Source: Bacteroidaceae bacterium (lineage in GTDB: Bacteria; Bacteroidota; Bacteroidia; Bacteroidales; Bacteroidaceae). From it: DNA of 53,384 nt. Both the position numbers and the translations under genes were made by a program. This document shows, one piece after another, positions 11,572 to 49,713 of the stretch (its first letter is position 1; every line of letters begins with the position of its first letter). The notes below the pieces were generated by a model. It saw nothing but the letters and a program-made list of their open reading frames with translations, was not told where the DNA came from and did not search any database. The DNA lies in assembly GCA_017615125.1 (NCBI GenBank), contig JAGAAS010000067.1, forward strand, positions 1 through 53,384, in the 5' to 3' direction.

Positions 11572-11611
11572 TGTTACATGTTACATTTGTTACATTTGTT
11601 ACATTAGTTAC
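11572..11611 (+). repeat. TGTTACA iteron-like array, left arm
   Basis: Four copies of TGTTACA start at 11572, 11579, 11588 and 11597, followed by a degenerate TAGTTAC at 11605. Steps are 7, 9 and 9 bases. Bases 11580-11604 are the perfect reverse complement of 11812-11836. Confidence 0.9.
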
Positions 11612-11686
11612 TTTTTAGGGGGTAAACATGAATTTTTGTCGGTTTTTGGAGAAAAATGAGAAGAGATAGAGAGAAAATTGAGATTA

Positions 11687-11755
11687 CAATTTATAAGTAA
11701 TAGAATTTAATTATATATTATAATATATTACAATATATTATAATATATAATTAGC
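11687..11755. other. Extremely AT-rich core
   Basis: About 70 bases made almost wholly of A and T, with repeated ATATTA/TAATAT motifs, centred between the two opposed heptamer arrays. It would melt easily. Confidence 0.8.
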
Positions 11756-11805
11756 ATAATCTCTAACTATTTTTCCCTACCCAAAAAAGTTAGGTGTTTA
11801 GTAAA

Positions 11806-11837
11806 TGTAACATGTAACAAATGTAACAAATGTAACG
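11806..11837 (-). repeat. TGTAACA iteron-like array, right arm
   Basis: TGTAACA occurs at 11806, 11813 and 11822, with TGTAACG at 11831. These are the same heptamers as the left arm in opposite orientation. A 25-base stretch (11812-11836) is a perfect inverted copy of the left arm. Confidence 0.9.
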
Positions 11838-42873: not shown

Positions 42874-42904
42874 TTGCATTCTTCCGAAAGAAACACTATC
42901 TTTG
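42874..42904 (+). promoter_or_regulatory. Promoter of the HU-HIG gene
   Basis: TTG at 42874-42876 and TATCTTTG at 42897-42904 are 20 bases apart. Transcription would start near 42911, giving a leader of about 137 bases that includes the repeat array. Confidence 0.75.
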
Positions 42905-42930
42905 CAGAAGAAAGAAAAACGTTTTGACAT

Positions 42931-43007
42931 CACGAAGGAACACGTGTTCCTTCATGAAGGCTTACGTGTTCCTTCACGAAGGTGAACGTGTTCCTTCGTG
43001 AAGGTAT
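42931..43007 (+). repeat. Tandem 22-base palindromic repeat array in the HU-HIG leader
   Basis: Three exact-length 22-base units start at 42942, 42964 and 42986, each beginning ACGTGTTCCTTC and followed by a variable pair and GAAGG. A half unit precedes them. GAAGG occurs four times and CCTTC three times, so each arm can pair with either neighbour. The stretch 42934-42953 (GAAGGAACAC then GTGTTCCTTC) is a perfect 20-base palindrome. The array lies wholly in the predicted transcribed leader. Confidence 0.9.
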
Positions 43008-43047
43008 AAACAAAAACTCTAACAATAACCTCATAAAATCAAAGCAA

Positions 43048-43716
43048 ATGAAACAATCATCAAAGTCCAAGAAAGGCGGGGAAATCCTTTTCCAGACGGT
43101 GCGCCGCTCCGCAGTCAGCGGCGAGCATCTTCCCGCAGGGCAGGAGCCTGTGCGCGTGATGCCCTACAATCAGACGACAATCACCACAAAGGAACTCGCT
43201 GAAATCATTTCCGGGCGCTGCACGGTGAAGGCTCCCGACGTGTACGCCACGTTGATGGCGCTCTCGGAAGTGCTGACAGAAACGCTGCTCGACGGCAATC
43301 GCCTGCGGGTGGACGGAGTGGGCTCCTTCGACATTTCGTTGACGCAGAAGACACTCCGAGCCGACGGAACGGAACGTCAGCCGAAAATGCTGTCCGACAC
43401 ACTTCGCTCCGACGATGTCTGCGTCAACCGCGTAGTCTTTACTCCCAGCCGCGAGCTGCAGAACGCCCTGAAGCATGCCGTCTTTGTCAATAGCGGTGTG
43501 AATGCTGCCGAGACCCTCTCGCGTGAAGAAATCGATGCATTCCTCTCGCAGCATTTCTCCACCCAGCAAGTGCTCTTCCGCCGGGAGCTCGAACAGCATT
43601 TCGACATTTCTCAAAAGCAGGCAAATCGTTGGCTGAAAATCCTTGTCGACGATGGTGCCCTTCAGCCCCTCGGCCCTCGCAACTCCCGCTTCTACGTGCC
43701 AGGTAATGAGCATTAA
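43048..43716 (+). CDS. HU-HIG family DNA-binding protein with C-terminal winged helix
   Basis: A 222-residue Bacteroidota protein. The first 140 residues resemble HU-HIG, an HU-like DNA-bending fold with the loop region RLRVDGVGSFDISLTQKTLR. The final 65 residues (SREEIDAFLSQHFSTQQVLF to FYVPG) look like a winged helix-turn-helix, where KQANRWLKILVDDGAL is the likely recognition helix region. Such proteins are assumed to organise or regulate DNA, but no role is proven. The ATG at 43048 is chosen: the longer frame from 42982 starts inside the repeat array and has no similarity to the family. It is preceded by a palindromic leader that it could bind. Confidence 0.82.
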   Translation: MKQSSKSKKGGEILFQTVRRSAVSGEHLPAGQEPVRVMPYNQTTITTKELAEIISGRCTVKAPDVYATLMALSEVLTETLLDGNRLRVDGVGSFDISLTQKTLRADGTERQPKMLSDTLRSDDVCVNRVVFTPSRELQNALKHAVFVNSGVNAAETLSREEIDAFLSQHFSTQQVLFRRELEQHFDISQKQANRWLKILVDDGALQPLGPRNSRFYVPGNEH

Positions 43717-49393: not shown

Positions 49394-49590
49394 GGTCTTT
49401 TTTGCGAAAGCCTTAGCGTGTTTTTGGAGAAAAAATAGACCCCTTCCAAAGTGCCTTCTGAAGGTGCTTTTTGGGGACGAAATTTTCGAACTTACTTGAA
49501 ACCGAAGATGAAAACAACTTCGGTTCGGCATTTTTACATTAACGGAGAAACCTTCGCCATTATGTGCGCGTCTCTTTAAAGGAAGTAAAA

Positions 49591-49650
49591 GACGCATGGG
49601 ACTTTTATAAGCGACGCATGCATCGTTTATAAGCGACGCATGCGTCGTTT
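49591..49650. repeat. Tandem 22-base palindromic repeat array upstream of the TPR regulator
   Basis: Three units start at 49591, 49613 and 49635, each opening GACGCATG; the first two are full 22-base units ending TTTATAAGC. In unit three the first half is the perfect palindrome GACGCATGCGTC, in unit two nearly so. The sequence is unrelated to the array at 42931-43007 but has the same 22-base period. Confidence 0.88.
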
Positions 49651-49713
49651 GAATTTTCCTCTGCCTAAAAAGCTTAGTTCCTAACAAATAAGACGTGCTA
49701 TGCTTGAGTCGGA

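Follow-up and report, generated by a model that had tools for sequence, protein, structure and literature searches.

The element closest to those described here is BrickBuilt of Porphyromonas gingivalis, in which a 23-nt unit is repeated 1 to 22.8 times in tandem (Klein et al. 2015, PMC4596501). According to the accessible portion of that paper, its 19 dispersed intergenic copies have inverted-repeat ends and variable repeat numbers and are species-restricted; they carry long leader and tail segments and IS5-like ends, and the authors read the element as a MITE. BrickBuilt_14, at 84 nt the shortest of them, is flanked by PGN_0871 on the minus strand and PGN_0872 on the plus strand (PMC4596501, Table 1). 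In the same portion PGN_0872 is annotated 'DNA-binding protein (PF00216)', five BrickBuilt neighbour genes encode DNA/RNA-binding proteins according to the authors, and the repeat is nowhere connected with PGN_0872. Excerpts of two other papers report that BrickBuilt is annotated with MITEs and that nucleoid proteins are among multicopy genes (PMC5771137), and that an HU of P. gingivalis is located near a 77-bp inverted repeat (PMC3969353). As far as these excerpts describe it, BrickBuilt resembles the arrays of this study in its short tandem repeats, dispersed intergenic positions, inverted-repeat ends and the location of one copy beside an HU-family gene. It differs by its 23-nt units, long leader and tail and IS5-like ends, whereas the units here are of 22 bp.

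In REP/REPIN systems, too, palindromic repeats are scattered through the genome and one copy adjoins the gene of a partner protein, in that case the tyrosine transposase RAYT (TnpA-REP); a GTAG or CGTC tag marks many REPs. The arrays described below likewise combine dispersed palindromes with a partner gene beside one copy. However, the partner is a Y1 tyrosine transposase in REP-RAYT systems and an HU-HIG protein at the leader copy here, and neither tag occurs in any of the 18 loci of family 1 (see below), within the array or 10 nt outside. Iteron-binding plasmid Rep proteins are winged-helix proteins that recognize ~22-bp repeats and autoregulate; iterons are plasmid replication origins, whereas our arrays are dispersed over many contigs and their protein has an HU fold. 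HU itself is a textbook nucleoid protein with little sequence specificity in DNA binding, and its superfamily was reportedly surveyed by Burroughs and co-workers in 2017. HU/IHF nucleoid proteins share the HU fold with the protein of this study, but no array was found in the classical-HU-like leaders sampled: 13 classical-HU-like loci were fetched, and none of the 12 with a usable leader reached a lag-22 score of 27. A literature search that missed most subscription journals yielded no paper on the pairing of HU-HIG proteins with arrays. We rate the pairing of an HU-HIG protein with its own array as new, while the dispersed-repeat half has a described relative and autoregulated DNA-binding proteins are ordinary.

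The array was found in a 53,384-nucleotide contig (hereafter the window) of a draft Bacteroidaceae genome (3.03 Mb, 107 contigs, 87% complete, 4% contamination), and the features of the locus are collected in Table 1. Tandem Repeats Finder delimits it with a period of 22, 3.4 copies and 81% matches. As the first-pass annotation had noted, four GAAGG arms (at 42934, 42956, 42978 and 43000) alternate with three CCTTC arms (at 42949, 42971 and 42993), spaced by exactly 22. It had also described three exact 22-base units; the spacing is exact, but the units themselves are not, with 84 and 87% identity to the reference copy. In each 22-bp step, the dyad CCTTC-RY-GAAGG is accompanied by a second one 11 bp away, which has an ACGT core and three-base arms that vary. 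The whole element consists of a left end TTTTGACATCACGAAGG, three 22-bp steps and a right end GGTATAAACAA, and its ends differ among copies. When the window was scanned with one threshold, lag 22 gave two arrays, lags 18, 20 and 21 gave 1, 1 and 3, respectively, and lags 19, 23, 24, 25 and 26 gave none. The array is real and beyond chance. Its matches in Rfam are all below gathering scores and mostly to miRNA families, and we took them as fortuitous. Elsewhere in the window, AT-rich repeats TGTTACATT and, ~200 bp further, AAATGTAAC in inverted orientation flank a TATAT-rich core (11572-11836).

Table 1. Coordinates of the features in the window.
Feature	Position	Strand	Basis
Bacteroidetes-type promoter	42874..42904	+	sequence; consensus presumed
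Whole ~100-bp element	42922..43013	+	compared with 17 other copies
22-bp-period palindromic array, family 1 of this genome	42930..43004	+	Tandem Repeats Finder, pattern comparisons
Dyad CCTTCATGAAGG	42949..42960	.	sequence
Dyad CCTTCACGAAGG	42971..42982	.	sequence
Dyad CCTTCGTGAAGG	42993..43004	.	sequence
HU-HIG protein, 222 aa	43048..43716	+	Pfam PF18291, E=1.1e-16
Second 22-bp-period array, unit GACGCATGCATCGTTTATAAGC, C93-paralogue leader family	49573..49670	.	window scan, family search

The promoter is composed of TTG (42874-42876), a 20-nt spacer and TATCTTTG (42897-42904), and TTG-N20-TATCTTTG fits what we take to be the Bacteroidetes promoter consensus; a strict pattern with a 21-nt spacer gave no match, the window promoter having a spacer of 20. 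The sequence thus bears out the earlier placement of the array between a promoter, presumably consensus-like, and the ATG of the HU-HIG gene at 43048.

The product of that gene belongs to the HU-HIG family, with a PF18291 match of 61.4 bits (cut-off 26.2), while its match to NCBIfam TIGR01201 (HU_rel), at 50 bits, is below the cut-off of 68.6. In our alignment A1, an HU fold spans approximately residues 31-145 and a C-terminal, winged-helix-like part residues ~155-219, with the consensus RREFETHFDISRNQALxWLKxLVxEGALRPLG in close relatives. A PDB profile search with this alignment matched HU/IHF chains (best 5eka, E=7.8e-12) and, over profile positions 161-197 of the C-terminal part, one CRP-like chain. 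The proline of the HU arm, which bends DNA in HU, is kept in the group nearest the window protein (RQPK, RHPK), and several other groups have shorter arms. Pfam helix-turn-helix models match the C-terminal part below cut-off only; the Pfam description of HU-HIG (PF18291) names a C-terminal winged helix among the fusions of the family. Eight named relatives are metagenome entries, with sources including yak omasum and sheep rumen; seven are labelled Bacteroidaceae or Bacteroidales and one Selenomonadales. The locus with the latter label (L233) has an HU-HIG gene and an array typical of this Bacteroidales group and is perhaps mislabelled or from a mixed metagenome bin.

Leader arrays were then surveyed across HU-HIG genes. 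The census comprised 63 leaders from 20 genomes (41 of the 43 matches with E<1e-20 and 22 weaker ones, including 3 leaders from another genus), to which 34 PF18291 genes were added, also from other families of the order, giving a non-exhaustive set of 97 related genes in 35 genomes. HU-HIG proteins were called long when they have the C-terminal helix-turn-helix-like part and short when they are devoid of it; three proteins (G000:C93, G001:C21 and G011:C3b, with open frames of 230, 215 and 215 aa) were moved from short to long because the initial matches were partial matches of long proteins. We left out L184 (leader masked as N), L155 (14-nt leader) and L160 (14 nt, classical HU). At a lag-22 score of at least 27 of 44, leader arrays are present in 66 of 77 long and 3 of 20 short genes, a difference with a Fisher p of 4e-9, uncorrected for relatedness; as the genes are related, these counts do not represent independent events. 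The corresponding numbers were 64/74 and 5/23 before the three reassignments, and they are 68/77 and 3/20 at a threshold of 25, and 57/77 and 2/20 at 29. Any of 23 control periods at score 27 gave 2/77 long and 2/20 short genes. These period controls, together with the window scan, replace a first background control (36 of 374 leaders at a score of at least 28), which was rejected since most of its loci had been fetched for their arrays. Eleven long genes fall under the threshold. Among the short genes with arrays, G058:C27 and G105:C193 are AT-rich and doubtful, and the third, G087:C3, is clear. This exception to the rule codes for a 129-aa HU-HIG without the C-terminal part, and its leader (L190) harbours a clear 22-bp array with TTAATGCGCATTAA-like dyads.

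In the 63 leaders of the first set, the best repeat period is 22 or 44 in 55. At a score of 27 of 44, 51 leaders show period 22 and 35 show period 44, compared with 4 for the remaining periods between 12 and 45 combined, which supports the initial reading of 22 bp as two helical turns. The sequences of the arrays are diverse: k-mer clustering of 53 leader arrays yields 5, 11 or 25 families depending on the threshold. A perfect 10-bp palindrome occurs in 34 of these 53 arrays, with 52 palindromes in all vs 4.1 in shuffles. An operator-like array beside its own promoter is kept among HU-HIG homologues. A TAnnTTTG box is found 18-68 nt (median 28) upstream of the array in 45 of 53 HU-HIG array leaders, and over all 63 leaders the motif occurs 52 times on the forward and 28 times on the reverse strand. 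At dispersed sites, it reads into the array from a leader-like distance in only 2 of 71 cases (2 of 142 sides), with array bounds set slightly differently for the two counts and L019 left out since its bounds were not found. This promoter-array arrangement is therefore special to HU-HIG genes.

The first-pass annotation had proposed autoregulation by the HU-HIG product through DNA or RNA. Because 66 of 77 long leaders have arrays, located 18-68 nt after TAnnTTTG in 45 of 53 cases, the link with the HU-HIG gene is supported and autoregulation is a natural reading. The RNA route, in which alternative leader hairpins formed by the alternating arms would be sensed by the protein or the ribosome, we consider very improbable. 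The array is in a likely leader, and this leader folds as RNA far better than shuffled sequences (z -6.7), but the opposite strand does so too (z -8.1), as expected of dyad arrays. Moreover, pairing of the inner three-base arms of family 1 units is not conserved (6 of 47 pair, vs 9.4 in shuffles), and RNA hairpins do not need a strict 22-base spacing. Since both strands fold, the inner arms do not pair beyond chance, the period of 22 is constant despite sequence change, and dispersed copies rarely lie behind promoter boxes, binding to duplex DNA with helical phasing is favoured.

The dispersal of the window array had escaped the initial description. A search of the genome with the family 1 pattern, allowing up to 3 mismatches, gave 77 matches vs 3 for the reversed pattern. 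They form 18 array loci including the window leader copy, a count that leaves out isolated 3-mismatch matches taken as chance (C7, C11, C37, C67, C90, C91:183943 and C104). The loci share the same design, with three steps between the ends, except L018 which has four, and the array of L015 is cut by a contig end. Their ends are of the TTGTTTATACC or TTGTTTTGACATC type on one side and often GGTATAAACAA on the other, with variants such as TATAAAGG and CAATAAAA. Only isolated two-mismatch matches, taken as chance, were found in 10 of 40 relatives searched (18 of them of the same genus), and the exact two-unit pattern is absent from the genome_contigs and viral_contigs collections, both of which may omit this genome. 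A phage origin is not favoured, since viral_contigs gave no exact match and, of 22 viral stretches that matched the pattern, not one codes for a protein related to the window HU-HIG.

Several family 1 loci have features in common beyond the array. L010, L013, L014, L015, L016 and L020, as well as L021 on the other strand, have extra shared sequence like GTAGGACTTTCGGGATTTTTTCTTT just outside the array, which by eye follows a terminator-like hairpin in most of these seven loci; in this subgroup the element possibly extends past the array. An additional repeat outside the array is common to L016 and L020. Arrays at several loci, of family 1 and others, are near contig ends (L012, L015, L016, L020, L024 and L077), and further copies may therefore be lost in assembly.

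Other leader arrays are also dispersed, to various extents. In this genome, those of the C40, C79 and C93 paralogues have 3, 19 and 9 loci, respectively, leader included. Nine of the C79 loci have the exact unit and 10 were found at 2-3 mismatches only, with one more in L093. The second array of the window, of the C93-paralogue family, sits between divergent genes, one mannonate-dehydratase-like and the other a 593-aa open frame. The fifth long HU-HIG gene of the genome (C40:101225) has array-like repeats of period 21. In relatives, the array of the G005 orthologue has 16 loci, and that of G012 has 22, two HU-HIG leaders among them, so that the family is not assignable to either one. The array of G054:C136, from another family of the order, has 8 loci in G054 and none in G128 or G047. 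Reversed-pattern controls for dispersed families gave 0-2 matches per strand and genome. Some leader arrays are hardly dispersed: in G003, G016, G009 and G017, 2, 1, 3 and 2 loci of the G012 type, respectively, were found with up to 2 mismatches, in addition to some weaker array-like matches.

A regulon of the ordinary kind, in which the dispersed arrays would be operators and the HU-HIG protein a transcription factor for the adjoining genes, was weighed against the genomic setting of the loci. The arrays are intergenic, and many dispersed sites are within ~250 bp of a gene end, as such operators would be. However, the 56 loci of four families follow no orientation rule, with 22 in tandem, 13 in divergent and 9 in convergent position and 12 unresolved; these tallies are approximate, as they come from a rough ORF caller that took an antisense ORF for the window HU-HIG gene. 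Seven of the 56 loci were called within an ORF, but five of these ORFs, of 99-126 codons, look spurious, and L019 and L025 touch longer ORFs. The lack of an orientation rule and the scarcity of promoter boxes at a leader-like distance make us regard a regulon as unlikely. Because the dispersed sites do not track promoters, we favour a role in chromosome architecture.

Comparison with relatives indicates how such arrays evolve. The window locus is syntenic with a G005 locus, the HU-HIG proteins being 75% identical and the neighbouring gene products 85, 70 and 84%, while the syntenic leader arrays are unrelated, CCTTC-RY-GAAGG here vs CAAC-RY-GTTG in G005. Arrays that are absent or unrelated in close orthologues had been named at the outset as an argument against autoregulation. 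In G005 the sequence is indeed unrelated, but the presence of an array, its place and its period are kept, and more generally the HU-HIG leaders of relatives are occupied at this position by arrays that differ in sequence but share the design. Of the 15 G005 loci outside leaders, only two lie in an interval that also has an array in this genome (G000), namely L023/L072 and L024/L078. In L023/L072 the array type is swapped between flanks that are 93% identical over 83 nt and 89% over 166 nt, identity reaching to roughly 100 and 50 nt from the array. For one G012 site, the interval is shorter and array-free in G003, G016 and G009; at another, a related array follows the same gene in G009, and none is present in the compared sequence after that gene in G016 and G017. 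Given these gaps, the shared intervals and the L023/L072 swap, arrays are gained or lost at some sites and maintained at others, and units can take on a new sequence at an unchanged site.

Some of these observations would fit an origin as mobile repeats, in which MITE-like elements were spread by a transposase and HU-HIG leaders were a landing place or the source copy. Discrete dispersed elements with terminal inverted repeats are found in G012, G005 and G000. The G012 elements (20 loci, L192-L211) are ~96 bp long, with inverted ends and sharp borders, and in 18 of the 20, as judged by eye, the TTAT...ATAA-type ends are bordered on either side by the same single base (C/C or G/G), which falls short of a convincing target-site duplication. 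G012 sites are filled in some relatives and array-free in others, and BrickBuilt is described as a MITE in the accessible portion of PMC4596501. Yet mobility leaves unexplained why 66 of 77 long leaders harbour arrays with one period and different sequences just after the promoter, as well as the swap of array type in place at L023/L072, and no transposase linked to the elements was noticed in passing. We therefore view mobile repeats as the primary cause as unlikely.

The type of array follows the clade of the helix-turn-helix. Proteins with SRNQA or SRTQA have arrays with CAAC or AACGGGTT half-sites, CSRRYA proteins have CAACRCGTTG arrays, and CSYSTAYRR proteins have TTTTCATCGCRATG; for the window protein the motif is SQKQA and the half-site GAAGG. 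The C40 paralogue is an SRNQA protein with a mixed array of CAAC and GAAGG. Array similarity correlates with the identity of the HU part (0.63) as well as with that of the helix-turn-helix (0.59), so that these data do not separate the specificity determinant from common descent. The match between clade and array is a lead toward a recognition code, short of proof. That most long HU-HIG genes carry an array with one 22-base rhythm but a sequence of its own suggests that each protein has a private DNA address.

From these sequence comparisons, we infer binding, autoregulation and a role for the dispersed sites. Probably, an HU-type protein that recognizes a specific sequence controls its own gene, with the window array as its operator and also as one of 18 arrays that it binds in the genome. 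DNA bending by a dimer of the HU part and base reading by the winged-helix-like part would combine in cooperative binding along several dyads, with the 22-bp units contacted from the same side of the helix. By occupying the leader array, immediately downstream of the transcription start, the protein would repress its own expression. It would also cover the scattered intergenic copies, which would serve as chromosomal binding sites for architecture or insulation. These copies may have spread by a transposition- or recombination-like process. With each paralogue having its own array family, several parallel address systems would coexist in a genome.

A broader and more tentative proposal, which we put forward as a possibility with somewhat less than even confidence, is that Bacteroidales possess such parallel address systems, in which protein and arrays diverge together, some in place, with BrickBuilt as one family and PGN_0872 as its protein. 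If so, a change in the reader would be accompanied by a change of both the leader and the dispersed arrays, and a given chromosomal site would in some cases have different sequences in related species. Private sites, one in the leader of the gene and others over the chromosome, appear to belong to a branch of the HU superfamily that is present in multiple copies. This provides a testable function for the HU-HIG paralogues of Bacteroidales and a candidate protein for orphan repeats such as BrickBuilt. The many naturally diverged protein-array pairs would make a recognition code, and the concerted change of whole sets of sites, approachable.
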